From Herbaspirillum sp. AP02 (GTDB lineage Bacteria > Pseudomonadota > Gammaproteobacteria > Burkholderiales > Burkholderiaceae_D): a stretch of 64,000 nt of DNA. Where the stretch lies: assembly GCF_015767275.1 (NCBI RefSeq), contig NZ_JADWMY010000005.1:186001-250000 (forward strand), in the 5' to 3' direction. This document shows, one piece after another, positions 12,951-45,992 of the stretch (positions are counted from its first letter, which is position 1; every line of letters begins with the position of its first letter). The position numbers were made by a program, and so were the translations under genes. The notes beneath the pieces were generated by a model. That model was not told the origin of the DNA. It worked only from the letters and a program-made list of their open reading frames with translations, and searched no databases.

Positions 12951-13283
12951 GTGAAGCAGGCCGGTAGGCCGGATTCTGTTACGGCGGGAAACCCGCTATG
13001 ACAGCCATTCCTCTAGGCGACGGATCACTCCGCCGCTCAAGCTTTCTACCCGCACGCTCCGCGAGCCACATCAACGCGTGCCTATTTGAAATTGCTCCGG
13101 GTGGAGGTTACCGCGTTTCACCGTAACTTAATACGCTCGTCTCTGTGGCCCTGTTCCTCGCCTTATACCGGCTTGCACCGGCTTTCAGCGGACGGCCGTT
13201 AACCGTCACCCTGCTCTGTGGAGTCCGGACCTTCCTCCCGCCACCTCCTTGCGAAGGCAGCCAGCGGCTGTCTGGCCTGCATC
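12951..13283 (-). ncRNA. rnpB: RNase P RNA, bacterial type A
   Basis: The minus strand has the hallmark RNase P RNA segments in order. These are the P1 5' strand GCAGGCC, GAGGAAGGTCCGGACTCCAC (CR I), ACAGAGACGAGCG, the conserved GGTGAAACGCGGTAACCTCC, CCGGAGCAATTTCAAATAGG, then GAGGAATGGCTGTC, ACAGAATCCGGC and the P1 3' strand GGCCTGC. The size of about 333 nt and the two peripheral hairpins fit type A. It processes pre-tRNA 5' ends with the RnpA protein. End positions are from P1 pairing and may be off by a few bases. Confidence 0.96.
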
Positions 13284-29749: not shown

Positions 29750-31827
29750 GGAGTTCCTTGTTCGGTATCGGGCAGCGCGGTCATGATAGCGCGTCGCAAT
29801 GCAGATCGCTCAAGCGGCTTGCCCAGGCCGGCGACACCCAGCGTGGCCGCCAGTTCCAACACGTGCGGCTGGCCGGAGCACAGCACCACCGGCAGATCGG
29901 CGCGCATTTCGCGCAAGGCCACGATGAGGGCGTCACCCTGCATCTGTGGCATGTCCAGGTCGGTGATCACCAGATCCACCGCCAGCGGCTCCAGGGCGAA
30001 TTCCTCCAGCGCCAGCAACGGGTCGTCGAAGACGATGGGCGCATAGCCCAGCGCATCCAGCCATTGCGCGCACAGTGTGCGCTGGCCCGCATCGTCGTCG
30101 ACCACGAAGATGCATTGGCCCTGGCCGCAGGCGACTTCATCGTCATTAGGCCGGCTGGTGCTGGTCGTCGATTCCGGCGCCGGTGCAGGGGGCGCCCTAT
30201 TTGTTGCGGCTGCGGTTGCGGTTGCAGCCGGCAGCAACAGCCGGAAGCGCGTGCCCCTGGTATCACTGGCAACGGCCACGCCGCCTTCATGTTCGATGGC
30301 GATGCCGGCGACGATGGCCAATCCCAATCCGGTCCCCTTGCCGCCCGGACCGTCGCGCGTGGTGAAGAAGGGTTCGAACAGGCGCGACAGGTGCTGCGGG
30401 GCGATGCCGCTGCCGTCATCCACCACCTCCAGCCACACCGCCTGCTGCTGTGGCAGGTCGCCAGCCAGGGGCGCTTCCGCTGGCGCCTCCCCGGCATGCA
30501 GGCTGACCACCACCCGGCTGCGCGCGGCCTGGCTGGCATTGCGGATCAGGTTCAGGGCCACGCGTGAGAGTTGTCCGGCATGGCCTTGCACCGCCAGCGG
30601 CTGGGCCGGTGGCAGGAACTCGATCACCACGCCGGCCCGGCACAACGGTCGCGCCAGTTGCACCGCCTCGGCCACCGGCTCGCGCAGGTCCAGCAGGCTG
30701 CGTTGACGATCGCCGCGACGTCCCGCCAGCAGGATCTGCTCCGTCAGTTCGCGCCCGCGACGCACCGCCGACACCACCTCGGACAGCGGGCGCTGGGCCG
30801 GCGCGTCCGGGTCCAGCTGTTCCTGGGCCAGCTCGGCATAGCCGCCGGCAGCACCCAATACATTGTTGAAGTCGTGGGCAATGCCGCCCGCCATCAGCCC
30901 CAGCGATTCGAAGCGGCGCATCTGTTCCATCCGTGCCGCCAGCGCCTGCCGCTCGCGCATGGCCACCGCGATGAAGAAGGTCAGGATCGCCAGGCCGGCC
31001 AGGTCGACCTGCAGGCTCCAGGTACTGTCCAGCCCTTCCTGGCGATAAGGGCCGATATCGTAGAGCGTGAGCAGGACCGCCATCACCGCGGCCAGGCTGG
31101 TCACCAGGGTGGCACTGCGCATGCCGCCGTACAGGGCGGCTCCGGCCAGTACCAGCGACAGCAGCACGCGCTGCACCTCGCCCGACCAGTCGCAGGCGGC
31201 GCACGCCAGCAATACCGCCACCACGGCCACGGCACCGAGCACCGAAGGCCGGTCGCCACGCAGGCTGCGCCAGTGCAGCTGCGACCACACCAGCCAGGTC
31301 GGCGTGAGCACCAGGATCGCCAGACCATTGCCCACCAGCAGCGTGCGCCATTCTGCCCACCATCCGGCCGGCATCACATCGGCCGCCAGGGTCGCCCCCA
31401 GAGCGGCCACCAGCGCCACCACCAGCAAGGGCAGCAGGGCCAGGAAACGCCCCAGTTTGTAGAGGCCGTCGAATTGCCCGTCGCGACTGACGAAGCGCCG
31501 CCCCAGCCATAGGCAGGCGACGATCTGCACCACGTTCAACAGTGCGAAGCCGGCATCGACCTGCACCGGCAGGCTATCGCGGTCGCCCACCACCAGCATG
31601 GCCACGAACACCGCCAGCAGATACGGGAACCAGTCTCGCGCCGGCTTGCGCCACAGCAGCGCGATCATCAATGCGGGGGCCGGCGCGGCAATCGGCGCCA
31701 GGGTGGCGCTGTCCTGCAGATTGGCGGCAGGACTGGCCAGGAGCGTGTAGACCACGCCGCACAGCAGCGCCGACAGCAGGCTGCGAAACATGCCGGCCAG
31801 CGGGCGTTGAGAAAGAGGGGGGGTCAT
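29746..31827 (-). CDS. Hybrid sensor histidine kinase with MASE1-like membrane domain and receiver
   Basis: This 693-aa inner-membrane kinase begins with about eight hydrophobic segments (residues 15-290) resembling a MASE1 sensory domain. A short coiled linker and a dimerisation/phosphoacceptor region (GGIAHDFNNVLGAAGGYAEL, H318) follow. The ATPase domain has N-box NLIRNASQAA, DDGSGIA and GTGLGLAIV, and a C-terminal receiver spans about 575-690 (VITDLDMPQMQGD as phosphoacceptor region). The start at 31827 has GAGG upstream and lies nine bases after the end of the ClpP-like membrane protein gene. Signal unknown; likely partner is the OmpR-type regulator. Confidence 0.9.
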   Translation of the reverse strand: MTPPLSQRPLAGMFRSLLSALLCGVVYTLLASPAANLQDSATLAPIAAPAPALMIALLWRKPARDWFPYLLAVFVAMLVVGDRDSLPVQVDAGFALLNVVQIVACLWLGRRFVSRDGQFDGLYKLGRFLALLPLLVVALVAALGATLAADVMPAGWWAEWRTLLVGNGLAILVLTPTWLVWSQLHWRSLRGDRPSVLGAVAVVAVLLACAACDWSGEVQRVLLSLVLAGAALYGGMRSATLVTSLAAVMAVLLTLYDIGPYRQEGLDSTWSLQVDLAGLAILTFFIAVAMRERQALAARMEQMRRFESLGLMAGGIAHDFNNVLGAAGGYAELAQEQLDPDAPAQRPLSEVVSAVRRGRELTEQILLAGRRGDRQRSLLDLREPVAEAVQLARPLCRAGVVIEFLPPAQPLAVQGHAGQLSRVALNLIRNASQAARSRVVVSLHAGEAPAEAPLAGDLPQQQAVWLEVVDDGSGIAPQHLSRLFEPFFTTRDGPGGKGTGLGLAIVAGIAIEHEGGVAVASDTRGTRFRLLLPAATATAAATNRAPPAPAPESTTSTSRPNDDEVACGQGQCIFVVDDDAGQRTLCAQWLDALGYAPIVFDDPLLALEEFALEPLAVDLVITDLDMPQMQGDALIVALREMRADLPVVLCSGQPHVLELAATLGVAGLGKPLERSALRRAIMTALPDTEQGTP

Positions 31828-31835
31828 GGCAAGCC

Positions 31836-33410
31836 TCAGTTGCGCGAATACAGGACCCGCAGCGCCACCCTGCGCTCTTCCGTTGGCAGCTGGTTGACCG
31901 CGCGCAGGTAGGCGATGGAGGCATCGCAGGTGGCATCCGGATCGGCCTGGCGACGCAGCGCCGACGACAGCAGCTTCAACTGTTCCTGCGTCAGGGGCGC
32001 CAGCGCCTTGCGGAAGACGCGGGTACGCTCGGCCAGGGTGTAGCGACCGGCATTGGCCGGATCGGCGTCGCGCATCAGGCGCTGGGTCATCTGCTGCTCG
32101 CGGCTGGCGAACTCCTGCGGCAGCACTGCCTGTGGGGCCTCGCGACCGGCGGCAGCGTCCGCGCGCGAGCGTGGATAGATCAGTTCGGTACACGCCGCCG
32201 TACTGATGCCACGCAGGGCGACCGCTTCATCCAGCAACAGTTGCTGGAACTCGGCCAGGGATTCATCGGAGGCGATCGGCAGCAGGCGACGGCTCAGCAG
32301 GCCGACCTGCTCACGACCGACCGCCAGGATATCGGCATCGGAAGCATGCGCCTGTACCTTGGCCCAGGCCAGATCGATGGTGCGGGCGAAATCGGCAGGA
32401 TGGTAGCGCGCCATGATGTCGAACAGGGCGCCTTTCTTGAACTCGGCTTCCAGGATATCGCGTGAACTGGCGATGGTGGCGATCTGCGCAGTCTCGCCAC
32501 CTGGCGCCAGGCGCGTCAGGACACCGGCCTGCAGCAACTGGCCCAGCTCCGGATACCAGCTGCGGGCGGCCGGGGTATCGGCGATGCGTTCGATGAAATC
32601 GTGCGGCAGACCCAGCTTGCCGTAGGTGTCGAAGGTCAGCTTGCGGTCGAAGCTCCTGTTGATGCGATCATCTCCACCCACCGTGTAGAGCGTATGAAAA
32701 CCGATATGCGCGCGCGGGTCCATGGCGCGGTCACGGCCGGCCAGAAAGGCCAGCGTGCAGGAAGAGGAACACTCCTGCTCCACATAGGTATCGAGCCGAT
32801 GGCGCCGGATCACCTCGCCCACCAGCTTGCCCTCGCGCACCCAGCCCCCGGCGGAATACAGCACCACGGTCTGCACCGAAGGATGCTGCAGCAACAGGTG
32901 CTCCAGGCCATCGGCGGCGCCATCGTTCATGCCACCCTGCAGCAGCAGCGACTTGCCATCCACCCGGAGCTGGTAGACCACGGGCGGCCCCAGCTGTTTG
33001 CCCAGGGCGATCTCGAACTGCTCGCGCAAGGACGGCGCGGCGCGCCAGGTGCTGCTGGCCATGCTGATGGCGCCGCAGACGATGAGGAACTTGACCACCA
33101 CCTCGGCCCAGCGCCGCCCGCCCCGCGCCACGTGCTTGCCGGCCGAACGCCAGCAGCCGCAGACGCCCCAGGTCCAGGCCAGGTAGCTGAAGGCGGCGAT
33201 CCCCAGCACGCCGGCCATGCCATAGCGTGCCGGCATGTCATTGGTCAGGCGCGCCAGCACCGAGATGGCCAGTGCCGGCACCAGCGAGGTCAGCAGGACG
33301 GTATGCAGCCAGTAGGAACGGCCCAGCGAATAATCCCCGCGCCAATGACGGCGCAGGAAACTGGCGGGCGGGCTGACGGAAACGGAAGATCGGTTTACTG
33401 CCTGGGACAC
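31836..33410 (-). CDS. Membrane protein with ClpP/crotonase-like periplasmic domain (COG3904-like)
   Basis: This 524-aa protein has three membrane segments (about residues 35-120). A domain then recalls COG3904 proteins of ClpP-like fold: TVVLYSAGGWVREGKLVGEVIRRHRLDTYV, then EQECSSSCTLAFLAGRDR with the would-be nucleophile serine, then HIGFHTLY with the candidate histidine. A long helical C-terminal region of about 250 residues follows. The start is GTG. It precedes the hybrid kinase in the same operon, so it may process or sense an envelope substrate for that kinase. Protease activity is inference. Confidence 0.75.
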   Translation of the reverse strand: MSQAVNRSSVSVSPPASFLRRHWRGDYSLGRSYWLHTVLLTSLVPALAISVLARLTNDMPARYGMAGVLGIAAFSYLAWTWGVCGCWRSAGKHVARGGRRWAEVVVKFLIVCGAISMASSTWRAAPSLREQFEIALGKQLGPPVVYQLRVDGKSLLLQGGMNDGAADGLEHLLLQHPSVQTVVLYSAGGWVREGKLVGEVIRRHRLDTYVEQECSSSCTLAFLAGRDRAMDPRAHIGFHTLYTVGGDDRINRSFDRKLTFDTYGKLGLPHDFIERIADTPAARSWYPELGQLLQAGVLTRLAPGGETAQIATIASSRDILEAEFKKGALFDIMARYHPADFARTIDLAWAKVQAHASDADILAVGREQVGLLSRRLLPIASDESLAEFQQLLLDEAVALRGISTAACTELIYPRSRADAAAGREAPQAVLPQEFASREQQMTQRLMRDADPANAGRYTLAERTRVFRKALAPLTQEQLKLLSSALRRQADPDATCDASIAYLRAVNQLPTEERRVALRVLYSRN

Positions 33411-33516: not shown

Positions 33517-35172
33517 TCAGCCACCGTGACCGGGAATGCGCGACAGGTCGACTTCGTCGATCTGGCTGGCATGCATGAACTGTTCGGCATACTTTTCATA
33601 GATGCGTTCCCGCACGAAGAGGTCGAACAGGTCCGGGTCGATATGGTCGCGCGCCTTGAAACCGGCCAGGATTTCCACCGCCTCGTTGAGCGTATTGCCG
33701 CGCTTGTAGGGACGGTCGGCGGCCGTGACGGCCTCGAAGATATCGGCCACCGCCATGATGCGCGCCTGCACCGACATCTGGTCCCGCGTCAATCCCTTGG
33801 GATAGCCCTTGCCATCCATGCGCTCGTGGTGGCCACCGGCAAATTCGGTGACCCGTGAGAGTTGCTTGGGCCAGGGCAGCGACTCCAGCATGCGGATGGT
33901 GATGACGATGTGGTTGTTGATGATGGCGCGCTCGGCGTCGTTGAGCGTCCCGGCGCGGATGCGCAGGTTGCCGGCCTCTTCGTCGTCGAGCAGCTTGCGC
34001 AGTTGGCCATCCGGGCCGCGCCAGGTCCGCTCGGCAATATCCAGCACGCGCTGCTGGTCTTCGGCGCGCATGCCTTCGTTGCCATAGTTGATCTTGCGCA
34101 GGAAGGCGCGCTCCTCATCCATCTGCAGCACGTCGGCCTGCAGGGCGGCATCCAGCGCAGCCGACTGGTCCGCGCTCAGGGCCGTGCCCAGCGCCAGTTT
34201 TTCCTGCAGCATGCGGATTTCGGCGTCACGCTTCAAGACTTCGAAACGGGTATCGATCAGGTGGATGCGGTCGAAGATGGTTTCCAGCTTGGTCGCCTTT
34301 TCGACGATATGGCTGGGCGAACCGATCTTGCCGCAATCGTGCAGCAGCGCCGCCAGCCACAGCTCGCGACGGTCGGCGTCGGTCATGCGGAAATCGGCCA
34401 GCGGGCCTTCGGTGGCATTGTGGGCCGCCTCGGCCAGCATCATCGCCAGCTGTGGCACCTGCTCGCAATGGCGGCCGGTATGCGGGGATTTTTCGCCGAT
34501 GCCGATGTTGATCAGCTTGATCAGGCTTTCGAACAGGTTTTCCAGGCGACCGATCAATTGCTGGTTGGTCATCGCCATGGCCGCCTGCGACGCCAGCGCC
34601 TCGATGAAGCGTTGGTCGGTCTCGGAGAAGGGGATCGGCTCGCCGCTATCGGCATCGATGGCATTGATGAGCTGCAACACGCCCACCAGTTCGCCTTCGT
34701 GATCCTCCATCGGCACCGTCAGGATGGACTTGGACCGGTATCCATACTTCTCGTCGAACAGGCGCATGCCGTTGAAGTTGAAGCCGCTGGCCTGGTACAC
34801 GTCGGGGATGTTGACCGAATTGCGGGTATTGGCGGAATAGGCCGCCACCGCCGCCAGGTTGGGCTGGCCGTCGGGCAAGGTCAGTGCGATGTCGGGAATC
34901 GAGATCGGCTGGCCGCTGCTGCCGCCCTGGTGCATCTTGAGGGTCTGGTTGACCGAGATGTAGAAGCGCAGCGCGTCGCCACTTTCGGTGATGCGATAGA
35001 GGGTCCCGCCATCGGCGCGGGTGATGTCGCGCGCGGTCAGCAGGATACGTTCGAGCAAGAGCGGAATATCGCGATTGCTACCCAGTTCGCGGCACAGTTC
35101 GGTGAGCCGTTCCAGCCGGTGCGCGATGTCGCGGTGCTGGCCGGCACTGGGACTGAGGTCGTGGATATTCAT
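33517..35172 (-). CDS. GAF and HD-GYP domain protein (cyclic-di-GMP phosphodiesterase-like)
   Basis: This 551-aa cytoplasmic protein has a GAF domain (about residues 30-205) and an HD-GYP domain (about 215-530). The metal motif LLHDCGKIG (HD near 278) and the HD-GYP signature HHERMDGKGYPKG are intact, so cyclic-di-GMP hydrolysis is plausible. About 90 residues between HD and GYP (EIRMLQEKLALGTAL to RAIINNHI) are longer than usual and helical. ATG 35172 has GGGGAG upstream; an upstream in-frame start at 35307 is less likely. It lies upstream of the membrane ClpP-like gene in the same direction. Confidence 0.92.
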   Translation of the reverse strand: MNIHDLSPSAGQHRDIAHRLERLTELCRELGSNRDIPLLLERILLTARDITRADGGTLYRITESGDALRFYISVNQTLKMHQGGSSGQPISIPDIALTLPDGQPNLAAVAAYSANTRNSVNIPDVYQASGFNFNGMRLFDEKYGYRSKSILTVPMEDHEGELVGVLQLINAIDADSGEPIPFSETDQRFIEALASQAAMAMTNQQLIGRLENLFESLIKLINIGIGEKSPHTGRHCEQVPQLAMMLAEAAHNATEGPLADFRMTDADRRELWLAALLHDCGKIGSPSHIVEKATKLETIFDRIHLIDTRFEVLKRDAEIRMLQEKLALGTALSADQSAALDAALQADVLQMDEERAFLRKINYGNEGMRAEDQQRVLDIAERTWRGPDGQLRKLLDDEEAGNLRIRAGTLNDAERAIINNHIVITIRMLESLPWPKQLSRVTEFAGGHHERMDGKGYPKGLTRDQMSVQARIMAVADIFEAVTAADRPYKRGNTLNEAVEILAGFKARDHIDPDLFDLFVRERIYEKYAEQFMHASQIDEVDLSRIPGHGG

Positions 35173-35642
35173 GCTGCCATCTCCCCAGCACGGCAGTGGT
35201 GGCACGGGCCGTAGTGGCAGGCTCGGGCTGCTGGATGGACTGCTGGCGACATGCTGCTCCCTGATGCGTTGGCGTATGGACATGGCACGATGATTGCCGG
35301 CCGGCAAACCCGCGTTTTCTTCAGATGCTTTTTGGGCATCGTGGCGATTCTAGAACGACGGCGCACGCCGTCTTGCAGCGAACTTGTGGGGATTTGGGCG
35401 CCAATTCTACGCTTGCCACGGCCGTTGCAGCCCGATGCTGCGTATTTCCGGCAGTCGCCACGCCACTGCCGAGCTCAGGGATATCCTGATTGCACTCCGG
35501 CCCCGAATCCCTTACCATCACGATCTGTTGCATAATTTGCCACATCTTCCGCAAAACCAGTCCCGGCGGGGGTTTCCGGGCTGCAACGCGTTCCTGTGAA
35601 GCATCCATGCTCTTGCAGGGACCCATCCTCCTAAAAGCGGCA
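35173..35642. other. 470-nt divergent region between HD-GYP and phosphodiesterase genes
   Basis: No gene is convincing here. It must hold promoters for both divergent genes. CATAAT near 35530 on the plus strand could be a -10, but I find no matching -35. Some short frames exist without recognisable product. Confidence 0.5.
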
Positions 35643-36422
35643 ATGACGATGCGTGTAGAAATTCTCGGCTGCAGTGGCGGCATCGGTGGCAATGGCATGC
35701 GCACCACTTCCCTGCTCATAGATGACGATATCCTGATCGATGCCGGTACCGGCGTGGGCGACCTGTCGCTGCAGCGACTGGCGGCCATCGATCACGTCTT
35801 CATCACGCACGCCCACCTGGATCATATAGCCTGCCTGCCCCTGATGATCGACAGCGTCGGCGACCTGCGCAGTACCCCGCTGACCATGCATGCCACGGCG
35901 CAGACCCTAGAGATCATCCGCAAGCACATCTTCAACTGGCACATCTGGCCCGACTTCAGCGTCATCCCGAATGCCGAGCGACCCTTCCTGCGTTTCGCCA
36001 CGGTTGAGCAAGGCCAGGCGGTCCGTATCGGCCAGCGCAGCATCACGCCTCTGCCGGCCACGCACACCGTACCGGCAGTGGGTTATCACCTGCACAACGA
36101 ACATAGCGGCGCCTCGCTTGCCTTCAGCGGCGATACGTCCATCTGCCCGGCGCTGTGGGAAGCCCTCAACCGCATCGACGCCCTGCGCTACCTGATCATC
36201 GAAGCCGCCTTCGCCAATCGCGACCGCGAGCTGGCGCTGCTCTCCAAGCACCTGTGTCCCAGCCTGCTGCTGCAGGAACTGCAACACCTGCAGAGCACGC
36301 CGGAAGTGCTGATCACCCACGCCAAACCCGGTCAGATCCAGGAGATCGCCAGCGAGATCGCCGCCGGCACTGGCGTACATCATCCCCGCATGCTGGCCAC
36401 CGGCACCGTGCTTGAGTTCTGA
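35643..36422 (+). CDS. Metallo-beta-lactamase-fold class II 3',5'-cyclic-nucleotide phosphodiesterase
   Basis: This 259-aa MBL-fold protein is of CpdP/class II cAMP phosphodiesterase type. The class signature THAHLDHIACLP supplies the HxHxDH metal site (H56, H58, D60, H61). Further histidines appear in LPATHTVPAVGYHL, and FSGDTS and LITHAKPG complete the site. It should hydrolyse cAMP or cGMP. It converges on the FecR-TPS-cyclase block, so a cyclase and a phosphodiesterase flank the secretion genes. The start may be 35643 or 35649; neither has a strong RBS. Confidence 0.87.
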   Translation: MTMRVEILGCSGGIGGNGMRTTSLLIDDDILIDAGTGVGDLSLQRLAAIDHVFITHAHLDHIACLPLMIDSVGDLRSTPLTMHATAQTLEIIRKHIFNWHIWPDFSVIPNAERPFLRFATVEQGQAVRIGQRSITPLPATHTVPAVGYHLHNEHSGASLAFSGDTSICPALWEALNRIDALRYLIIEAAFANRDRELALLSKHLCPSLLLQELQHLQSTPEVLITHAKPGQIQEIASEIAAGTGVHHPRMLATGTVLEF

Positions 36423-36499: not shown

Positions 36500-37279
36500 T
36501 CACTGCGCTACGCAGGCATCCAGCTTGGCCGCACCGATCTTCTGCGTGCCGTTGTTGCCATTGCTGCTGATGGCCGGCGGCATGGTCACCTGCACGCCCT
36601 GCGACTGCGGCACGATCACCGGCGGCACGATCCTCGACTGCACGAAACCGAACTGGCCGGCACTGAAGACCTGCGAACCGGCCGGGTTGGTCACCACGAT
36701 GGCGCCGGTCACCACATCCACGTGCAGACCATTGTCCGGCGGCTGGCCGCTGGGAGTCGGCACGCCGCCGCAATCGTTCTGGCAGTACAGCGCGCCGAAG
36801 TGAGTGCCACGAATACCGATGGTGGCCGTGGGCGTATCGAAATTGACGGCTTCATGATTGCGCTTGCCGACCAGTCCGGTCACTGCCCGCAGGCCGCCCT
36901 TGACCAGGCCGATGGCCACCGAGTCGTTCTTCGGTTCCTTCTCGTCGTAGATGTACTTGTTGACCGCCACCTCGGTCCCCGGACGCAGGACGATCTCGGC
37001 ATTGTCCAGGAACTTGACGCGGGTATAGGTCTCGCGCTCAGTGATCAGGGTATCGCCCTGCAGGATGGCCGATTTCACGGCCAGCACCACGCGCGCACCA
37101 TCGGCATGGCGCGCCGTAAGCACACCCGACAGATGGGTCACCTGGCCGACCACCGGCTGCGCCTGCGCCTGGGCCGGGGCAGCGACGACCAGCAGCCACA
37201 GCACCAGGCTCAACGCCAGCAGTTGCCCGGCCACTTGTTGCCGGACCAGTCCCGGCAGGTTTTGCTTGAAGGAGTTCAT
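36500..37279 (-). CDS. Secreted FecR-domain protein
   Basis: This 259-aa exported protein has a signal peptide (about residues 1-45, ending AAPAQAQA). A FecR domain follows (about 50-190) with ILQGDTLITERETYTRVKFLDNAEIVLRPGTEVAVNKYIYDE and NFDTPTATIGIRGTHF. The tail is Pro/Gly-rich. No membrane anchor is seen, so it is periplasmic or exported rather than an iron anti-sigma factor. It is the last gene of the cyclase-TpsB-TpsA-FecR series, 22 bases after tpsA. I chose the ATG that directly precedes the signal peptide, although its RBS is poor. Confidence 0.88.
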   Translation of the reverse strand: MNSFKQNLPGLVRQQVAGQLLALSLVLWLLVVAAPAQAQAQPVVGQVTHLSGVLTARHADGARVVLAVKSAILQGDTLITERETYTRVKFLDNAEIVLRPGTEVAVNKYIYDEKEPKNDSVAIGLVKGGLRAVTGLVGKRNHEAVNFDTPTATIGIRGTHFGALYCQNDCGGVPTPSGQPPDNGLHVDVVTGAIVVTNPAGSQVFSAGQFGFVQSRIVPPVIVPQSQGVQVTMPPAISSNGNNGTQKIGAAKLDACVAQ

Positions 37280-37301
37280 AGGCGTGATTTGATCCGGTTC
37301 A

Positions 37302-40300
37302 TCAGGTGCACATCGGCAACGGTTTCTTGACCTGCTTGCGATCGCCACCCTCATCGCCGAAATTATCGGCGGTGCCGCCCACGGTCTGGCCGTTGGCATT
37401 GTTCTGCTGCAGGACATCGCCGGTATGGTAGACCGCCGAATCCGACAGCTGCGCATTGTTCAGCGTGGTCTGCAGGCTCTGGCTCTGCTGGTTCTGCTGC
37501 TGCTGCACCGCCTGCGCGGTCTGGCTGGTGGCCGAGCTGCCGCTGCCGGAGACCGGCGTGCGGGTGCCGTTGACGTCGGTAATGGTCACCCCTTGCGCGT
37601 AACCGATCACCGCGCCCGAATCCACCGAGAGCAGCGCCACGCCCGGCGGCGAGGTGGAGATGTTGGCATTGATGGTCATCGAGTCACCGGCCGAAAGCGT
37701 GATGTTGCCGCCGGTCGAGACCAGCACGCCATTGACGATCAGCGTGTCGTTGCTGCCCGAGGAGGCGCCAGCGGTCAGGGTGATGCTGCCGGTGGCGCTC
37801 ACGCCGCCCGACCCGATGGTCAGCGGGCTATGCGTGACCAGGCTCACGGAGCCGTTGGAACTCTTGACCTGGCCGGTCGTATTGATGCCCAGCAGCGACA
37901 GCTTGCTGGCCGCGCTGGTGACCGTGCCATTGGCGCTGGTGGGCAGACTGCCGAGGAAATCGGCGCTGCTGCCGATGGCCGTGGTCTGTGCGCCACCGGT
38001 GTTGTCGATGCTGATATTGCCGCGTGTGGTGCTCACGCCATTGATGCTGACCACGCTGGCGTCGCTGGTATTGAGCGAATTGGTGAGGCTGATGTCACCC
38101 GTGCCATTGTTGTTGGCCGCGAAGCCGGCCACCTGGTTACCCGAGTTGCTGAGCTTGATGCCGGTGGTAGCCGCCGCGATCAACTGCTGCTTCACCCGCA
38201 GCGAGGTACCGCTGTTCTGGCTGACGTTGCCGCTCTGCGCTTCCAGTACCAGGTTGTTGGCGGTGATATTGCCCACGGCCAGAGCACCGCTGGCCTGCGA
38301 CAGCGCCGCGTCGGCCAGGGTCAGATTGCCACCGGTCTGGGTAAAGCCTTCTGCCACCACCAGGCGCGAGCCGGTATTGCCGGTCACGGTGCCGTCGGAG
38401 ACGGTCAGGTTGGACAGGCGGACATCGCCGCCCAGCGTCAGGTTGCCGGCGGTCAGATTGACCGTCATGCCGGACTGCGAGGCATTGGCGATGGTCACGC
38501 TACCCTTCAACAACTCGGTCACGCCGTCCTGCACGTCGGTATCACCGATATTGAGGGTGCCGTTGCCACTGGTGCTGCCATTGAGGATCAGGGCCGTAGT
38601 GGCGTTGGCAGCCGCCGAACTGCCGACACTGATGTTGGCCGTGCCCTGGATGCTGGAACTGTTGCGTACCGTCAGGTTGCCGCTCTGCTGATACAGCTGG
38701 CCGCCCTGGGCAATCTGCAGGCTGCCGATCACGTCATCACCGCTGTCATGACTTGCGCTCTTGTTGGCAGCGATGACCACAGTGTCGATCTGGGTTGGAA
38801 GATAGGTGTCGCTGGTGCGCTCACCCTGGCTGTCGACCCAGCTGTAGCGGCTGCCCCAGCCACCCTCGCTGTTGGCTGCGTAGAAGGTCTCGGCACCCCT
38901 GAACTGCAGGCTGAGCGAGCCGCCGTCACCGTAGACCGCCTTGATCATCTTCTCGTCGCTGCCCACTTTCACCACATCGCCGGTCACGTTGCGGAAATAG
39001 CTGCTACCGACGCCCGATTCGTTTTCACCGAAACTGAAGACATCGAAGCTGGCGCTGCTCGCTGGAACGTAGTTGCCGATCAGTCGTGTCTTCAGGGTAC
39101 CACCCAGGCTGACCGAGTTGGTGCCGAAGGTGATGCGGTCGTAGCTGGTGGCGCTGACGATGTCGACCAGCATCTTGCCGGCCGCATTCTGCGTGAAGCT
39201 GGCTCCATTGATGGTCAGGTTGCCGACGGTCCCGTCGCCACCCGGCGCCAGGGTGCCGTTGTTGGTGACCGAACCGGTGGCGGTGAGCGTCCCGGTGCCC
39301 GAGATGGTGCCATTGGCCTCATTGGTGATCTGCTTGGCGCTGATCGTGGCGCCGGCCATGGTCAGCGTGCCGTTGTTGGTCACGCTATTGCTGCCGCTGA
39401 CGATGGAGGTCTGGTTGCCCAGGTTCATCTGGCCATTGTTGACCAGGCCGTTCGAACCATCCAGGCTCAGGTTCTGGCCCACGCCGCTGATGTTGAGCGT
39501 GCCATTGTTGGTCCAGGTGGCATTGCCCGATGCAGTCAGGGTCGTGCTGGCCGCATTGAGCAATATCTTGCCATTGGCATTGTTGACCACATCGCCACTG
39601 GAGGTGATCGAAGCGCTGGAATTGACGTTGATGGTACCGTTGTTGCTGATCCCGCCGCTGCCCACGGACAGGCTGTTGCTGCCACCGGTCAGCAGGTTGA
39701 CGGTGCCGTTGTTGTTCACCGAATCGACGTTGAGCTGGCTGCCTCGCATCGTCAGCACGCCGGCACTGCCCAACTGCAGGGCAGCGGCAGTCAGCAGCCC
39801 CCCCGTGCCGAGATCGACCGTGCCATTGCTGATGAGCAGATTCCCTTTGCTGGAGCCATCCTTGACGTCCATCGTGCCACCGTTGAGCACGACGCGCGCG
39901 TTATTGCCGATGGTCGTCTGGTGGCTGGAACTGACCACCGCCATACTGAAACTTTCCGTCTCAGTCTGCCGGTAGCCACTTTCGAGGTTCAGGTCCAACT
40001 TGCCCACCGTACTGGTGATGTTGGCGTTGATGGTGATGTTGTTGGCCGCCTGCAGCGTCAACGTGGCATCGGAGCCACTGGTCTTCTCGATGGCGGCGCT
40101 GACGGTGATATTGCCATCGGCGCTACCACCCGTGCCCGTCGTGAGCTGGACGCTGGTGCCGCTGTTGAGCTGGTCGCTGATGGTGCTGGCGCTGATCTGC
40201 GAGCCGCCCTCACCGGAATACACGGCATAGGAGGTACCGCAGCCGTCACCATTGCCGGTCAGGGTGCCATTGGCCACCACCTCCAGGTCATACGGATCGA

Positions 40301-41486
40301 TCAGCCAGGTACCGCCCGAACCGACCTTGGGCACTTTCACCACGTCCAGTTGCTTCAGGCCCGAGGTTTCGACGAAACCGCCCTGCCCCGGCGCGCCGGT
40401 GGCCGAGACATCGCCATCGATGAAGGCCTTGTTGCTGGCGAACAGCGTAACGTTGCCGCCCTTGGTGCCATCGGCGGTGATGCTGGAACTGGCCGTGGTG
40501 GTCAGGTCCTGCGAGGCCCGCAGGAAGATGCGGCCACCTTCGCGCACCACGCTGGAGGCGTTGATGACGCCACTGTTGGTGATCAGGCCCGCAGCCACGC
40601 CGATGCGCCCGGCTTCGGCGGTGATGCTGCCCAGGTTGGTCACGTTGCCGGCGCTACCGGTGACGTTGACCGTCACGCCCGGCGTGGCGGTATCGGCCAG
40701 GGTCACGGTCTGGCCGGCGGCCAGGATCACTTCGCCCTGCGGGCTCTTGATGATGCCGCTGTTGGAGACACTGCTGCCGATCAGGTAGACGCTGCCGCCG
40801 GTGGCCGATTCGATCTTGCCCTGGTTGTCCACCAGGCCGGCCGTGCCCTGCCTGGCGAAGTTGAGCTTGCCGGCCAGGAAATCACTGTCGCTGATGGCCA
40901 GCGAGGTGGCGATGAAACGCGCCGCATCGATGGTACCGCTGGGGCCGATCACCACGCCGTTGGGGTTGTACAGCACCACCGTGCCGGTGGCGGACAGCTT
41001 GCCGTAGATCTGCGAGATATCCGCGCCCGTCACCTTGGCCAGCAGCGCTGCCGCCGCATTGGGCTGGTTGACGTTGACGGCGGCATCGGCACCGATGCTG
41101 AAAGAAGCAAACTGGGCGATGGCCTGCGGCGAGAGCTGGTTGATATTGAGCGTGTTGCCGTTCTGGGTGAAGGTGACATTGCCATTGACCACGCTCCAGC
41201 CGTTGGGCAAGGTCCCCGGCGCGGGCGCGGCCGCCAGTACCGGTGCCTGCCAGGCGCCGCAGACGGCGGCCGCCGCCAGCGAGATGCGCAGACCCGGCGC
41301 CAGCACGCGCTGCCAGGAACGACGCAGCAGGCGCGACAGCAATTGCGGCAGCGGCTTGCGGGGACGCCAGGACAGCGTCAGCTTGCGCTTGCCCACCCGC
41401 ACCGTGATGGACGGCGGCAGCAATTCGATGACCGGCGGTACCGGTGGTTGCGTGGAAGCAGAGGCGGATGTGGATGTCGAAGTCAT
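37302..41486 (-). CDS. TpsA: filamentous hemagglutinin-type secreted exoprotein
   Basis: This 1394-aa two-partner-secretion substrate has a long N-terminal leader, about 85 residues with a basic region before the hydrophobic core (GLRISLAAAAVCGAW). The TPS secretion domain follows (about 90-330: NGNVTFTQNGNTLNINQLS, YGKLSATGTVVLYNPNGVVIG with NPNG at 174-177). The WLIDPYDLEV segment near 395 begins a long beta-helix-like part rich in NNGTLN and SVTNNGTLAPGG repeats. The C-terminus ends in a lone cysteine (PMCT). It starts one base after the tpsB stop. The role is probably adhesion or matrix contact; there is no catalytic domain I can recognise. Confidence 0.92.
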   Translation of the reverse strand: MTSTSTSASASTQPPVPPVIELLPPSITVRVGKRKLTLSWRPRKPLPQLLSRLLRRSWQRVLAPGLRISLAAAAVCGAWQAPVLAAAPAPGTLPNGWSVVNGNVTFTQNGNTLNINQLSPQAIAQFASFSIGADAAVNVNQPNAAAALLAKVTGADISQIYGKLSATGTVVLYNPNGVVIGPSGTIDAARFIATSLAISDSDFLAGKLNFARQGTAGLVDNQGKIESATGGSVYLIGSSVSNSGIIKSPQGEVILAAGQTVTLADTATPGVTVNVTGSAGNVTNLGSITAEAGRIGVAAGLITNSGVINASSVVREGGRIFLRASQDLTTTASSSITADGTKGGNVTLFASNKAFIDGDVSATGAPGQGGFVETSGLKQLDVVKVPKVGSGGTWLIDPYDLEVVANGTLTGNGDGCGTSYAVYSGEGGSQISASTISDQLNSGTSVQLTTGTGGSADGNITVSAAIEKTSGSDATLTLQAANNITINANITSTVGKLDLNLESGYRQTETESFSMAVVSSSHQTTIGNNARVVLNGGTMDVKDGSSKGNLLISNGTVDLGTGGLLTAAALQLGSAGVLTMRGSQLNVDSVNNNGTVNLLTGGSNSLSVGSGGISNNGTINVNSSASITSSGDVVNNANGKILLNAASTTLTASGNATWTNNGTLNISGVGQNLSLDGSNGLVNNGQMNLGNQTSIVSGSNSVTNNGTLTMAGATISAKQITNEANGTISGTGTLTATGSVTNNGTLAPGGDGTVGNLTINGASFTQNAAGKMLVDIVSATSYDRITFGTNSVSLGGTLKTRLIGNYVPASSASFDVFSFGENESGVGSSYFRNVTGDVVKVGSDEKMIKAVYGDGGSLSLQFRGAETFYAANSEGGWGSRYSWVDSQGERTSDTYLPTQIDTVVIAANKSASHDSGDDVIGSLQIAQGGQLYQQSGNLTVRNSSSIQGTANISVGSSAAANATTALILNGSTSGNGTLNIGDTDVQDGVTELLKGSVTIANASQSGMTVNLTAGNLTLGGDVRLSNLTVSDGTVTGNTGSRLVVAEGFTQTGGNLTLADAALSQASGALAVGNITANNLVLEAQSGNVSQNSGTSLRVKQQLIAAATTGIKLSNSGNQVAGFAANNNGTGDISLTNSLNTSDASVVSINGVSTTRGNISIDNTGGAQTTAIGSSADFLGSLPTSANGTVTSAASKLSLLGINTTGQVKSSNGSVSLVTHSPLTIGSGGVSATGSITLTAGASSGSNDTLIVNGVLVSTGGNITLSAGDSMTINANISTSPPGVALLSVDSGAVIGYAQGVTITDVNGTRTPVSGSGSSATSQTAQAVQQQQNQQSQSLQTTLNNAQLSDSAVYHTGDVLQQNNANGQTVGGTADNFGDEGGDRKQVKKPLPMCT

Positions 41487-41487
41487 G

Positions 41488-43164
41488 TCAGAACCCCAGG
41501 ATTGCGCTCAGGTGGGCGTTGAGATCGCCGCGTTGTTCGGTCACCGAATTGCCATTGAGGAGCACGCGCGCCACGTCCAGGCGCAGGCTGAAATCACGGC
41601 CCAGGGTGTAGCGGACGCCGGCGCCGAAACTGGCCAGCGTCACCGTGGAAGGCAGCGTGGAAGCGGAAGTCACGTTGTTGTTGGCGCCCCGGCCGGCATC
41701 CAGGAAGGCCAGCAGGCGCATGTTGCCGCGCGCCTCCTGCTTGGCCAGCAGGTCGGGCGTATAGACTTCGCTGTTGAGTACCACGCCACTGTCGGCAGCC
41801 ACCGCGCGTTCGGTAAACCCGCGCACGGTATTGGCCCCCGCCATGCCGAACTGCTCCACCGGCGGCAGGGCGTGCGGAGAAATCTGCAGCGCGCTGGCCA
41901 GACGCACCTGCCAGTCGCTCTCGAAGCCCTTGAACCAGGACGCACCGCCACGGATGACGATGAAATTGTCCATCGAACGGCGCGCGCCGGTGAAGAGCGA
42001 ATAACGGTCCGTCACATTCAGGCTATCGTTGCGCCGCGCCTCACCGGTGGCCATGTTGCGGGCAATGCCGAGGTTGTAGTCGATGATCTGGCCCACGCTC
42101 TGGCGCTGCGCGCTATAGCTGATCGACAGCGGCAGCGTGGAATACGGCACGCAGGTATTGATGGTGGCGCCATTGAGCAGGCCGCCGGCGATGGCGCAGG
42201 ATGACTCGACCTTCTTGTAGTCCGCCCCGAACACCAGCTTGCTGCCCCACTCCCCGCTGCGGGCAAAGAAGTGGTTCCAGCGCAGTGCATAGACTTCGCC
42301 GCGACCGGTGATGTTGAGGGTGGAATTGAGCGCCAGCGTCTGGCCCGAGCTGACGTTGGATTTACCGTAGATGAAATCCAGACTGTCACCCAGTGCATAC
42401 AGCGGCACCCGATAACCCAGCGAATACAGGTCCACCTTGGCGCCCGAGGGCGAGTCCGGCGAGGTGGTGTAGGCCACCGTGGCCACATGATCGCGATTGA
42501 ACAGGTTGGAGTGCTGCAGGGCCACGCCGGTACGCCAGCGGCCGGTATCGCCGCTGCCGGTGTTGTCGACGTTGAGCAGCAGGCGCAACGGGTTTTCGTC
42601 CTTGACGGCGACGGCGGCATCGATCTGATTGCTGGTCTCGGATGCCGTCAGGGTCACGTTGACCTGCTTGCCCGGATTGTCGTTGGCCAGTTGCACCGAT
42701 TCCGAAATGCGACGCAGATTGGGCGCGTTCCCCTCGCGCAGGTCGGGAATGCTGGCGCGGATGTTCTGTTCGCTGAAGTAACGGTTGTCGCTCACCACCA
42801 CCTTGCCGATGAGGGCTTCGACCACCTGCAGGCGCACCACGCCGCCGGTCAGTTCCTGCTCCGGCACACTGACCTGGACGGCACTGAAGCCGGCGCTGCG
42901 ATAGGCATTCTCCAGCGCCTCCAGCGCCTGTTGGATATCGCCGTAGACCCGCCCCGGCCCGGTGAACGGCGCCACGACGGCTTCGATGTGGGACTGCGAC
43001 AGCAGGCTGTTGCCTTGCACGTCATAGCGGCGGATATCGAAGCGCTCATCCCTGGGCGCCGACATGGCAGCACCCGACGCGGGTGTGGCCGTTTGCGCCA
43101 AGGCACCCGCGGCTGCGCCCAGCAGCGCCATCCCCATCACATACTGCGGCAAGCATCGTTTCAT
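41488..43164 (-). CDS. TpsB: ShlB/FhaC/HecB-family outer-membrane transporter
   Basis: This 558-aa outer-membrane pore secretes the TpsA partner encoded just downstream. A signal peptide (MKRCLPQYVMGMALLGAAAGALAQ) is followed by two POTRA domains (about residues 45-210, from RFDIRRYDVQGNSLL). The 16-strand barrel follows, with the conserved NTVRGF motif of the inward loop and a C-terminal phenylalanine. ATG 43164 was chosen because the signal peptide begins there. The stop and the tpsA start are separated by one base. Confidence 0.94.
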   Translation of the reverse strand: MKRCLPQYVMGMALLGAAAGALAQTATPASGAAMSAPRDERFDIRRYDVQGNSLLSQSHIEAVVAPFTGPGRVYGDIQQALEALENAYRSAGFSAVQVSVPEQELTGGVVRLQVVEALIGKVVVSDNRYFSEQNIRASIPDLREGNAPNLRRISESVQLANDNPGKQVNVTLTASETSNQIDAAVAVKDENPLRLLLNVDNTGSGDTGRWRTGVALQHSNLFNRDHVATVAYTTSPDSPSGAKVDLYSLGYRVPLYALGDSLDFIYGKSNVSSGQTLALNSTLNITGRGEVYALRWNHFFARSGEWGSKLVFGADYKKVESSCAIAGGLLNGATINTCVPYSTLPLSISYSAQRQSVGQIIDYNLGIARNMATGEARRNDSLNVTDRYSLFTGARRSMDNFIVIRGGASWFKGFESDWQVRLASALQISPHALPPVEQFGMAGANTVRGFTERAVAADSGVVLNSEVYTPDLLAKQEARGNMRLLAFLDAGRGANNNVTSASTLPSTVTLASFGAGVRYTLGRDFSLRLDVARVLLNGNSVTEQRGDLNAHLSAILGF

Positions 43165-43718
43165 CGTCTCAGCAGCCTCGCATGCGGCGAGGCTCTCCCT
43201 GTTTTCTTGTTTGCGATGTGCATCGCCCTCGCGATGCACCCCTGCTCCCTCCCGCAAAGCCCTTGCACCACTGACCACCCCGATCAATGGCGCAGGCACG
43301 CAAGTACGCGCCCGTGGAGGACACAACCCATGCCCGGTCCACGGCGATGACGCCCTACAGCGAAATACGAATACGAAAAGGAACCCCTGAAGCAGACTTA
43401 TCCGGACGCCGATGCGCCACTTCTTGAGGGAGTGGATGGATCGCTACCGGATACGCTGCCGCCTTTCCAGGCGGCACCGCTTATTGATACTTGTAAAGTA
43501 TACTGACTAGTCCTGACGGCGTCGACAATAATCGTCGTTTAACCGCCTCCAGTGGGCGTTTGCGCCACTTTAAGAGGACTCAAATTTCCCTCCGGAAATT
43601 GTTCTCATCAGACAGATGTAAAGAATTTCACCTCACCCCCATGCAATAAGAACAAGTGTCCATTGCGTGCCGGGCAAGCGCCTGAAGATTGCATGGAGGA
43701 ACGGGATGTTGGCGCCGC
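43165..43718. other. 554-nt region between cyclase and tpsB genes
   Basis: No gene is recognised. The left part would be an mRNA leader of tpsB of up to 330 nt. The right part contains inverted repeats (for example CAAATTTCC with GGAAATTG around 43581-43601), and A/T content is higher than in neighbouring genes. A TATACT element, a dyad over it and a hairpin after it are described separately. Confidence 0.6.
43457..43502 (-). promoter_or_regulatory. Candidate tpsB promoter with dyad and downstream hairpin
   Basis: On the minus strand TATACT (43502-43497) is a good -10 without a clear -35. A perfect dyad ATACTT-GTA-AAGTAT (43487-43501) covers it. A perfect 8-bp hairpin TGCCGCCT/AGGCGGCA (43457-43476) follows about 20 bases downstream. 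This suggests a regulated start with a structured, roughly 320-nt leader before tpsB. Confidence 0.4.
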
Positions 43719-45992
43719 TCATTTGGTCTCGAATGTGGTGACGCCATCCCAGTCTGCAGCCGGCGGCGTGAGGCGATAATGCGCGATGCGCTCCAGGTAG
43801 AGCGTGTAGAGACCCCGCGGCTGCTCCTGCTGCAGGGCCTGCAAGGCCGCCTCGGCATCGTCCCAGCGCTGGGCGCGCACCAGCGCCAGTGCCGCATGCC
43901 AGCGCTCGAGCTCGGCGCGCAAGGCGGCATCGAGGTCGCTTTCCAGTGCCAGCGGTTCATAGATGGGGACCGGCTCGTTCTTGCCCTTGACCCGCACGCG
44001 GTCCAGCTCGCGATAGGCGAACTGCGGCGCCGCCTGGCGCGTGGCCTGGCCCACCAGCAACCCTACCCCATAGACCTTGGTGATCGATTCCAGCCGCGAC
44101 GACAGGTTCACCGCGTCGCCCATGACCGTATACGCCTTGCGGATCTTCGAACCCATGTCACCCACGCGCATCTGCCCGCTATTGAGGCCGATGCCGATCT
44201 TCAGCGGTGGCCAGTTGCGGCGGATGAATTCCTCGTTCAGCAGCAGCGTGGTCTGCTGCATCTTCAGCGCCGTGGCGACAGCGCGGGCGGCGTGGTCAGG
44301 CACTTCCAGCGGCGCGCCCCAGAAGGCCATCACGGCGTCGCCGATGTACTTGTCCAGGGTGCCGCGATTGCCGCGGATGTCTTCCGACATCGCCGTGAGA
44401 TAGACATTGATGTACTCGCGCAACTCGTTGGGCTGCAGGCTCTCCGAGATGGTCGTGAAGCCGCGCACATCGGAGAACATCACGGTCAGCTCGCGGATCT
44501 CGCCCTCCATGTTGTAGCTGGCGGGATTGGCTGCCATTTCCGCCACCAGTTCCGGCGCCACGTATTCGCCGAACAAATTGACGATGGCCTTGCGGTTGCG
44601 ATACTCGAACAGGTAGCCCCAGGCCAGGTTGCTGATGAACAGCAGCGCCACCAGCAGCAGTGCGGTGGCCAGCGGCAGCACCATGCCGGCGCCGTCATAG
44701 AGCCAGAAGTTGAGTCCGCTCAGCGCACCGGCCGCCCCCACGGTGAGCAACATCGACGCCAGCGGCCCCAGCATCGGCAACAGCAGGCCCAGCAACAGGC
44801 CCACCAGCAGTACCTGCAGAGCATCATAGCCCTGCGCGAAATCGGGCCGAGCCTTGAAATCGTCATCGATGATGGAGGCAATCAGGTTGGCGTGGATTTC
44901 CACCCCCGGGTAGACCGGGTTGACCGGCGTGGCCCGCAGGTCGTTCAGGCCCGGCACGGTGGTGCCGACCAGCATGATCCGGCCATCCAGCTGATCATGC
45001 GGATAGGTGCCGCGGATCACGTCCACCGCCGGCACATAGCGGAAGGCGCCGCCCTTGGGACCGCCCGCGCCGCGATAGGTGACCAGCGTGGTCAGGTGCC
45101 GCTCCACGGGGATGAACAGGGGCTGCGGCCTGGCTTCCACGACAATGCCGGCCAGCGCGCCATAGTCACGCAGCTGACCCTCGAACAGCACATCCTGGCG
45201 TTGCAGGAAGACCGGCTTGATGCGCCTGCCACCCAGCGCCACGCGCGAGGTCGCCAGTGCCAGTGATTCGTAGAAATGATCGCCCACCTGCGCAATCAGC
45301 GGCACGGCGCGGATCAGGCCGTCGTCATCCGGGATGGGATTGAAGAAACCGCCGGCCCGCGCCGCTGCCTGCAATTGCGGCAGGTTGGCGCCATAGGCCT
45401 GCCAGTGGGTCACATCCAGTGCACGACCGCCCAGGTCGGCCACGCTGAAGGCCGGCGCCGGCAACTGCCCCTTGGCGATGGCGCCGGATTCATTGGAGAG
45501 GTTGTAGCCCATCACCACCGGCTGCCCCTGCAGGGCCTCGGCCAGGCGGGCATCGTAGTCCATCTGCGGCTTGAGCATCTGCAACTGTCGCGCCAGTTGC
45601 GGCACATCCTTCAGCGGCCCTTGCGCCAGCTGTTCCAGGCGACCATAGCCGGAACTGGTATCGGGCTCGGCGAAGACCACGTCGAAGCCTACCGATTGCG
45701 CCTGGTAGGTCTGCGTCATCTGCTTCACCAGTTGCGCCACCACGTCGCGGCTCCAGGGCCAGCGACCGAGTTCGCCGATGCTCTTCTCGTCGATGTCGAT
45801 GATGACGATGCGCGGGTCCAGATCGGGCTTGGCCACCCGCATGCGCAGGTCGTAGAAGAACAGGTCCAGTCGTTCCACCATCCGGTTGGGCAGCATGCCC
45901 ATGACCTGCGCCCCCGCCGCGCCGGTCAGTACCAGCGCCAGCAACCAGCGCGCCCAGTATTTGCCAAAGGCGGTACGCAAACGACGCAGCAT
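43719..45992 (-). CDS. CHASE2-domain class III adenylate/guanylate cyclase
   Basis: This 757-aa membrane protein has an N-terminal anchor (about 15-31) and a large periplasmic CHASE2 sensor (about 40-365: FYDLRMRVAKPDLDPRIVIIDIDEKSI, FDVVFAEPD). Three or so membrane segments (about 385-470) and a class III cyclase domain (about 490-680) follow. Metal aspartates are visible in MFSDVRGFT, the purine-binding Lys in LDKYIGDAVMAFWGAP, and YTVMGDAVNLSSRLE follows. The Lys favours ATP, so cAMP is the likely product. GGGGAAAG precedes the ATG. It lies upstream of tpsB in the same direction, across a 554-nt gap. Confidence 0.93.
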   Translation of the reverse strand: MLRRLRTAFGKYWARWLLALVLTGAAGAQVMGMLPNRMVERLDLFFYDLRMRVAKPDLDPRIVIIDIDEKSIGELGRWPWSRDVVAQLVKQMTQTYQAQSVGFDVVFAEPDTSSGYGRLEQLAQGPLKDVPQLARQLQMLKPQMDYDARLAEALQGQPVVMGYNLSNESGAIAKGQLPAPAFSVADLGGRALDVTHWQAYGANLPQLQAAARAGGFFNPIPDDDGLIRAVPLIAQVGDHFYESLALATSRVALGGRRIKPVFLQRQDVLFEGQLRDYGALAGIVVEARPQPLFIPVERHLTTLVTYRGAGGPKGGAFRYVPAVDVIRGTYPHDQLDGRIMLVGTTVPGLNDLRATPVNPVYPGVEIHANLIASIIDDDFKARPDFAQGYDALQVLLVGLLLGLLLPMLGPLASMLLTVGAAGALSGLNFWLYDGAGMVLPLATALLLVALLFISNLAWGYLFEYRNRKAIVNLFGEYVAPELVAEMAANPASYNMEGEIRELTVMFSDVRGFTTISESLQPNELREYINVYLTAMSEDIRGNRGTLDKYIGDAVMAFWGAPLEVPDHAARAVATALKMQQTTLLLNEEFIRRNWPPLKIGIGLNSGQMRVGDMGSKIRKAYTVMGDAVNLSSRLESITKVYGVGLLVGQATRQAAPQFAYRELDRVRVKGKNEPVPIYEPLALESDLDAALRAELERWHAALALVRAQRWDDAEAALQALQQEQPRGLYTLYLERIAHYRLTPPAADWDGVTTFETK

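Follow-up and report, generated by a model that had tools for sequence, protein, structure and literature searches.

The 64,000-nucleotide window analysed here (positions 186,001 to 250,000 of contig NZ_JADWMY010000005.1 from Herbaspirillum sp. AP02; coordinates below are those of the window) harbours a block of four minus-strand genes that unites a membrane cyclase carrying a CHASE2 domain, both components of a two-partner secretion (TPS) system and an exported FecR-domain protein. The cyclase, a CHASE2 class III (IIIb) adenylyl cyclase by sequence (43719..45992; PF05226 195 bits, PF00211 74 bits), has its CHASE2 domain encoded at ~44793-45902 and its catalytic domain at ~43974-44498. It is followed by TpsB, an outer-membrane transporter with POTRA_2 and ShlB domains (41488..43164; PF03865 109 bits, PF08479 62 bits; the open reading frame (ORF) as listed opens at 43326, and Met 55 of that ORF is the likely start), by TpsA, an exoprotein with a TPS domain (37302..41486; PF05860 103 bits), and by a FecR-domain protein of 259 amino acids (36500..37279; PF04773 32 bits) in which a signal peptide is recognisable by inspection. 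The TPS-domain TpsA together with the ShlB-type POTRA/barrel TpsB identifies the pair as two-partner secretion of type Vb. TpsA ends in ...KKPLPMCT, with Cys1393 as the second residue from the end (codon 37308..37310, minus strand), and the FecR protein in ...LDACVAQ, with Cys256 as the fourth (codon 36512..36514, minus strand). New here is that these matched C-terminal cysteines of TpsA and FecR go with the pairing of their genes. The first-pass annotation, made from the sequence alone, had described one co-directed block; all four genes are indeed present on the same strand and are kept together, but they probably form two transcription units, the cyclase standing apart from TpsB-TpsA-FecR, which are tightly packed with gaps of 1 and 22 bp and begin 554 bp from the cyclase gene.

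A cysteine lies within the last eight residues in 64 of the 66 FecR proteins linked to a TPS or TpsB gene and in 6/38 unlinked ones; for TpsA, the corresponding figures are 65/66 when linked to FecR and 0/19 when unlinked. The exceptions among the linked proteins are draft breaks (L054 in both proteins, L038 in FecR). Position is equally regular: the last cysteine of linked TpsA stands at -2 in 59/64 and that of linked FecR at -4 in 59/65, while the number of cysteines in the last 230 amino acids of FecR is odd in 60/65. Across 42 aligned FecR proteins Cys256 is the only invariant cysteine, and the tail around it is variable. TPS loci of the class with no CHASE2 gene in the fetched stretch have the terminal cysteine as well, in 10/10 FecR proteins and in 7/7 readable TpsA proteins. 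Variovorax sp. PBL-E5 has the FecR part (156 aa, no cysteine) and the tail (108 aa) annotated as separate genes adjoining a TpsA that ends in MYCN, and the 108-aa tail protein has its own signal-peptide-like start and a single cysteine at -4. The window TpsA holds cysteines only at positions 76, 416 and 1393 of its 1394 residues; since there is no second one in the last 900 residues, a partner would have to supply it, and FecR is the obvious candidate. The matched termini thus suggest an intermolecular disulfide between the two proteins.

These counts omit L097, L098, L099, L100 and L146, which come from the same genomes as G005, G001, G015, G018 and G020, as well as L258 and proteins cut by a locus end; the positional counts additionally omit L054. 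The linked TpsA include L239, added by hand from L257, and the linked rows from Oxalobacteraceae are close relatives, so that Fisher tests on these counts overstate the evidence. The 19 unlinked TpsA were picked by hand (L092, L093, L094, L095, L246, L248, L251, L253, L254, L256, L259, L260, L261, L262, L263, L265, L266, L274 and L276), ten of them being recognised by size, place beside TpsB and NPxG/L motif alone and some being near-copies. Outside this set stand L252 (cysteine at -5, its weak TPS match lying on the other strand from TpsB), the fragment L164, and L107, L110 and L111, in which TpsA ends in cysteine and FecR may lie past the locus end. Among the 38 unlinked FecR are L101 and L103, both with a truncated upstream context and a cysteine at the end of the tail; L275, fetched among the controls, has a FecR match and was counted as linked, and both its tails end in cysteine. 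The TPS ORFs of the Massilia-like L105, L108, L113, L117 and L125, read as stop-to-stop frames, contain 38-101 cysteines, far above Herbaspirillum.

Within the genus, a full-length cyclase orthologue is found in 31 of 34 Herbaspirillum genomes, and cyclase, TpsB, TpsA and FecR stand in one co-directed row in 28 of these 31 loci; the remaining three (L036, L037 and L057) run off contig ends. Counted among the 28 are L038 and L054, in which FecR is broken in the draft assembly: the FecR stop of L038 lies ~140 bp from the contig end and its TpsA retains the terminal cysteine, L054 has out-of-frame TpsA and FecR tails in a draft of 820 contigs, and both genomes hold further FecR pieces on other contigs. 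In L034 (genome G012), ~5.6 kb of additional sequence separates the cyclase from TpsB. As to the genomes that have no cyclase orthologue, G021 is also without FecR and without the low-scoring TpsB type of the block, G022 is 63% complete, and G002 carries a different TpsB-TpsA-FecR set whose FecR is 36% identical. An aldo-keto reductase that flanks the cyclase in other loci of the genus is not in the fetched stretch of 11 of the 12 deeper loci (L051-L062), L055 having it 2.6 kb off.

For relatives outside the genus, searching with the cyclase alignment yielded at least 565 loci, of which the best 80 were covered. Oxalobacteraceae-type cyclases outside Herbaspirillum have TPS genes within 6 kb in 37/41 tree rows, usually in the order phosphodiesterase (opposite), GAF-HD, cyclase, TpsB, TpsA and FecR, with a TpsA preceding TpsB in some Duganella-like loci. 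Among 34 loci of other lineages (contig ends truncate some of them), Pseudomaricurvus L162 has the full set TpsA-FecR-TpsB-cyclase, all adjacent. The class survey described below adds L231, which has the same gene order; in L162 and L231 alike, TpsB and cyclase are immediate neighbours on one strand. From that survey come also L222, where the cyclase is divergent from TpsB-TpsA-FecR, and L225, which has this arrangement but is cut before FecR. In L187 of the survey a TPS gene runs divergently from the cyclase, with neither TpsB nor FecR in the stretch fetched, and L180 has a TpsB ~4 kb from the cyclase on the opposite strand. The full set therefore recurs in two gene orders besides that of Herbaspirillum. 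On a cyclase tree (FastTree, with long-branch warnings) 7 changes are required to place the TPS label, of which 5 or more fall on starred branches; the changes include L180 and L187, both without FecR.

A class survey took in 232 Gammaproteobacteria genomes, 133 of which have a CHASE2 match, and from these 60 CHASE2 loci in 60 genomes and 47 families were examined (the best CHASE2 match per genome from the first 59 other listed genomes plus G231, hence not a random sample). FecR lies near CHASE2 in 24/60 of these loci, where 0.93 would be expected from the PF04773 counts of the same genomes; the count comes from an iterated profile, and 23/24 are also among the PF04773 matches listed (not L186). 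TpsB lies near CHASE2 in 4/60 against 0.42 expected (P ~0.001), all four being in the PF03865 list. A co-occurrence of CHASE2, TpsB, TpsA and FecR genes above chance, which the first-pass annotation had named as a check on its suggested loop, is borne out by these figures; adhesin state as the CHASE2 signal and a reset of cAMP by the phosphodiesterase, the further parts of that loop, are conjectural. In the Gammaproteobacteria loci L185, L191, L193, L197, L205, L208, L209, L211, L216, L223, L224 and L229, a second CHASE2 gene without a cyclase domain lies near the CHASE2 cyclase; that of L185, the one scanned, encodes a CHASE2 serine/threonine kinase, and so does the one in L138.

FecR is not bound to a single kind of CHASE2 receptor. 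In 8 of the 24 FecR windows of the class survey the CHASE2 protein has no cyclase domain, and L198, the sole one of these scanned, encodes a CHASE2 histidine kinase adjoining a LysM-FecR protein. The genus paralogue in L063 is likewise a CHASE2 histidine kinase; its neighbouring FecR protein gave no LysM match. The genes for FecR and for CHASE2 proteins of differing output (cyclase, histidine kinase) are often overlapping or adjacent. On the Methyloprofundus plasmid pINp10 (L278) a FecR gene overlaps that of a CHASE2 cyclase, with a divergent neighbour annotated as cyclic AMP receptor protein. Plasmids of the Rhizobiaceae Ensifer and Shinella (L279, L280) cluster genes for FecR, a CHASE2 cyclase, an NHLP-type bacteriocin exporter and a cyclic-nucleotide-binding protein, the Ensifer cluster additionally encoding an MBL hydrolase; the pair is therefore again tied to export. 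That FecR accompanies CHASE2 whatever the output domain suggests that it is what CHASE2 reads.

The window cyclase has the CHASE2 domain, both metal-binding aspartates and the Lys/Thr and Asn/Arg pairs of a class III adenylyl cyclase. Its residues D508, D552, K548, T622, N629 and R633, invariant across 14 aligned orthologues, are what we take to be the metal, adenine and transition-state residues of class IIIb, and the membrane cyclase of the block should make cyclic AMP (cAMP). It is the sole PF00211 match in the AP02 genome; the 34 genomes of the genus have one match in 30 cases, two in 2 and none in 2, the match in G002 being weak, under the cut-off and located elsewhere. Matches to solved structures span the catalytic part plus at most the preceding stretch, and none covers the CHASE2 domain. 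Facing the block on the plus strand is a metallohydrolase resembling class II cyclic-nucleotide phosphodiesterases (ORF 35490..36422, likely start near 35643), in which the intact HxHLDH site reported by the first-pass annotation is present as THAHLDH. The protein scores 46.1 bits with PDEase_II (PF02112; cut-off 23.7) and 51 bits with the NCBIfam cyclic-nucleotide phosphodiesterase equivalog NF041851, for which the cut-off is 400; it thus falls within the family and short of the equivalog. Behind it lies a gene for a GAF + HD protein (33517..35307, minus strand) that, in correction of the first-pass annotation, is part of the neighbourhood: GAF-HD is linked to cyclase and phosphodiesterase in most Oxalobacteraceae and in several other beta loci. 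The phosphodiesterase gene stands directly behind the cyclase in 14 of the 34 loci outside the Oxalobacteraceae, and these two therefore look like the older pair, the TPS genes being later additions. A 524-aa ORF without Pfam or NCBIfam match (31836-33410) adjoins the GAF-HD gene in many members of Herbaspirillum, and a MASE1 hybrid histidine kinase with an OmpR-type response regulator is encoded just outside the block (29009-32193).

The gap between the cyclase and tpsB contains a TATACT box resembling a -10 element (43497..43502, minus strand) and an operator-like 16-bp palindrome, ATTTCC-N4-GGAAAT (43584..43599). A single operon including the cyclase is made less plausible by this 554-bp gap with its own promoter-like and operator-like elements. 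Of the 29 cyclase-tpsB gaps of the genus, 24 contain the 14-bp core TTTCC-N4-GGAAA with one mismatch or none, and the best palindrome match lies 89-92 bp upstream of the TATACT box in 20/29 loci. In the AP02 genome the 16-bp palindrome has 20 sites with at most one mismatch, against 1 for a reversed control; several lie inside genes, and three are perfect, one of them preceding a gene whose translation by eye resembles a chemoreceptor. The site in the window and those at G000:C1:9047-9062 and C3:337034-337049 hint at a candidate regulon. We considered whether the palindrome might be a Clr box and rejected this: the N4 spacing is like that of the Clr site of S. meliloti, yet the half-site TTTCC does not fit GTNNC. 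At Rfam gathering scores the window yields RNase P alone (class A RNA, 12949-13283, minus strand), and no known RNA in the gap.

TPS proteins are exported with their N-terminus first. In the explanation that we prefer, two modules would be coupled, an adhesin with a trans-acting anchor and a readout. TpsB would export TpsA, N-terminus leading, and the extreme C-terminus of TpsA would remain in the periplasm, where Cys1393 would form a disulfide with Cys256 of FecR; the folded FecR protein would be the plug by which TpsA stays hooked in TpsB, a 'cysteine hook' in trans. A plug is rendered plausible by a weak likeness of the N-terminal part of FecR to the LapA retention module (2e-5, 24.8 bits, under the cut-off of 50); the same part matches PDB 5ix9 'Antifreeze protein' (E 0.028), part of an ice-binding adhesin. 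The CHASE2 domain of the neighbouring cyclase, which should share the periplasm with FecR, would sense FecR in its free or TpsA-bound state and set the level of cAMP, and the metallohydrolase, encoded by the older partner gene, may degrade that cAMP. That FecR serves as the trans anchor of TpsA, with the export order, disulfide, plug and adhesin role that this would entail, appears to us rather probable; if it does, we would lean, about as firmly, towards a CHASE2 cyclase that reads the state of FecR or TpsA, with the sensing, the direction of the signal and the cAMP that this presupposes. Taken as a whole, the two-module explanation falls somewhat short of an even chance, and a TPS family in which FecR is both a disulfide-linked adhesin hook and the ligand of a CHASE2 receptor is put forward as a tentative and rather doubtful proposition.

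A number of observations, set out in this paragraph and the next, weigh against the two-module explanation, and several alternatives draw on them. Of the 71 rows of a TpsB tree, 47 have both FecR linkage and the terminal cysteine, 21 have neither, and 3 have the cysteine with FecR not in the stretch; the cysteine trait needs 3 changes and gives 4 independent pairs, of which 2-3 agree and none disagree (P 0.25-0.5). With so few changes, and with the linked TpsB being largely one lineage, common inheritance may account for most of the match between the cysteines; this tree lends no support to an independent gain of the pair on repeated occasions, and we read the cysteines as a case of strong conservation, not as proven repeated co-gain. 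The FecR proteins of L188 and L226, which neighbour a CHASE2 cyclase, moreover end in cysteine although the fetched stretch shows no TPS gene (each contig has a ShlB gene at a distance of ~24-27 kb, and no TpsA was recognised next to these far ShlB loci in G168 and G181), and so do both FecR proteins of L196, where a TPS gene is equally missing from the fetched stretch. The two cysteines might then serve separate purposes, dimers or some modification in TpsA and a tail modification in FecR. The FecR tail, with its cysteine strictly at -4 and a mostly hydrophobic residue at -2, resembles a eukaryotic CaaX box by position. We nevertheless consider separate purposes distinctly unlikely: both cysteines go with the gene pair (few unlinked FecR and none of the unlinked TpsA have one), Variovorax retains the tail as an exported protein of its own beside TpsA, and cytoplasmic prenylation is unlikely because FecR carries a signal peptide. 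TpsB-TpsA-FecR also occurs without a CHASE2 gene in the fetched stretch (in at least 8 places among the matches listed, FecR lies within 1.2 kb of a ShlB gene and no CHASE2 is seen there), and FecR-CHASE2 occurs without TPS; neither therefore needs the other. Old gene order may simply be drifting along, cyclase and secretion genes being functionally uncoupled, and it fits such descent that within the Oxalobacteraceae most of the signal is a single lineage and that phosphodiesterase and GAF-HD seem to have joined the cyclase before the TPS genes did. This we regard as improbable, as the block stays in the deeper loci of the genus though nearly all of them show no aldo-keto reductase in the flank that was fetched, the cyclase tree implies at least five changes of TPS linkage on starred branches together with three gene orders, and the proximity of FecR to CHASE2 far exceeds expectation.

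The readout module faces objections of its own. The tpsBA-fecR genes have their own conserved promoter-like region, with the palindrome that is enriched in the genome, and G021 retains the phosphodiesterase gene yet has no PF00211 match. The tpsBA-fecR genes may be output only: the cyclase would sense something else, cAMP acting through some regulator would switch on tpsBA-fecR, and FecR would be part of the secretion module and would not talk to CHASE2. The promoter-like box and palindrome behind the cyclase gene would suit such an arrangement, and so would the FecR-domain protein smc02177 of S. meliloti, described as a cAMP-controlled Clr target that is dispensable for perception of the signal tested, whereas the outer-membrane protein NsrA is needed (PMC5498481). 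A receptor for the cAMP is a difficulty for this alternative and for the preferred explanation alike: the G-E-X8-R-S pocket described for the Crp family (PMC10127613) is present, even as G-E-X8-R-S/T, in 0/4 of the PF00027 cyclic-nucleotide-binding proteins of the AP02 genome, so that a canonical CRP drops out as the receptor; two of the four have GE..R followed by K or R, and a non-canonical receptor is possible. The palindrome differs from the Clr consensus. FecR being paired with CHASE2 proteins of different output through overlapping or adjacent genes, and TpsB adjoining the cyclase gene co-directionally in L162 and L231, also speak against an output-only role, which we judge unlikely, though to be taken seriously. 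Classical FecR iron signalling that controls TPS genes has the FecR domain in its favour, and a precedent in PUMA3 of P. aeruginosa, a cell-surface signalling system controlling a TPS pair (PMC2729926). It is hardly credible here: by inspection the window FecR has no membrane segment beyond the signal peptide and hence neither the inner-membrane anchor nor the cytoplasmic part of an anti-sigma regulator, a role excluded by this anatomy, and the 12 neighbouring ORFs scanned include no sigma factor or TonB receptor family. The first-pass annotation was right to set this FecR apart from iron signalling on the grounds of anchor and sigma factor.

Compared with known systems, the two-module explanation comes closest in its first part to HMW1 and HxuA of H. 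influenzae, where a disulfide knob is described as retaining the C-terminus in the periplasm and so locking TpsA in TpsB (PMC5422565). The proposal shares a TpsA C-terminus held in the periplasm through a disulfide; in HMW1/HxuA, however, the disulfide lies within the TpsA anchor domain, whereas the window TpsA has one terminal cysteine in place of two in its C-terminal region, and the second would come from the separate FecR protein. CdrA/CdrB of P. aeruginosa, together with LapG, provides a cysteine-hooked TPS adhesin tied to a nucleotide second messenger (PMC7616799, PMC5422565); here, by contrast, there is no second cysteine near the TpsA end, and an adenylyl-type cyclase takes the place of cyclic di-GMP control. 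Release of the CdrA/LapG type was rejected, LapG (PF06035) having 0 matches in the AP02 genome (control set 1/14). In S. meliloti the receptor-like adenylate cyclase CyaD1, with CHASE2, is encoded next, by locus number, to the FecR-domain gene smc02177 and to a Crp-family gene, with NsrA as the outer-membrane receptor of the CyaD1/CyaK-Clr-NsrA cascade (PMC5498481, PMC7529298, PMC13001267); the accessible passages of these reports present FecR as output, not input, and name no TPS pair, and the Crp-family receptor with its G-E-X8-R-S pocket was not found in AP02. The BiofilmReg operon of Burkholderia places a LysM-FecR gene beside those of a CHASE2 histidine kinase and a response regulator (PMC5192318). 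It has in common with the window block a FecR protein encoded beside a CHASE2 receptor, and differs in its histidine kinase and response regulator output, the LysM on FecR and the lack of TPS, the window FecR and CHASE2 proteins having no LysM and no kinase domain; the genus paralogues in L063-L069 are nearer to BiofilmReg than the window block is. The PUMA3 locus with tpsAB (PA0690-PA0692) links surface signalling to a TPS pair, its sigma-factor regulator having been compared with FecR (PMC2729926), but as an anti-sigma/ECF sigma system with a TonB-dependent receptor it is unlike the block. Neither this gene set nor a cysteine pairing between FecR and TpsA turned up in a search of mostly freely accessible papers, represented by parts of their text.

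The ligand of CHASE2 was called unknown in 2016 (PMC5192318), and the recurrent pairing with FecR offers one concrete, testable candidate for what CHASE2 domains sense, and from the matched termini follows the prediction of a mixed disulfide joining TpsA Cys1393 to FecR Cys256. Should the explanation hold, a trans-acting anchor would be added to the biology of two-partner secretion, the anchors described in a review, in its accessible parts, lying within TpsA (PMC5422565). The cell could then count its engaged or released adhesins and convert that count into cAMP, and many CHASE2 sensors would have in FecR the class of ligand that they have so far lacked.

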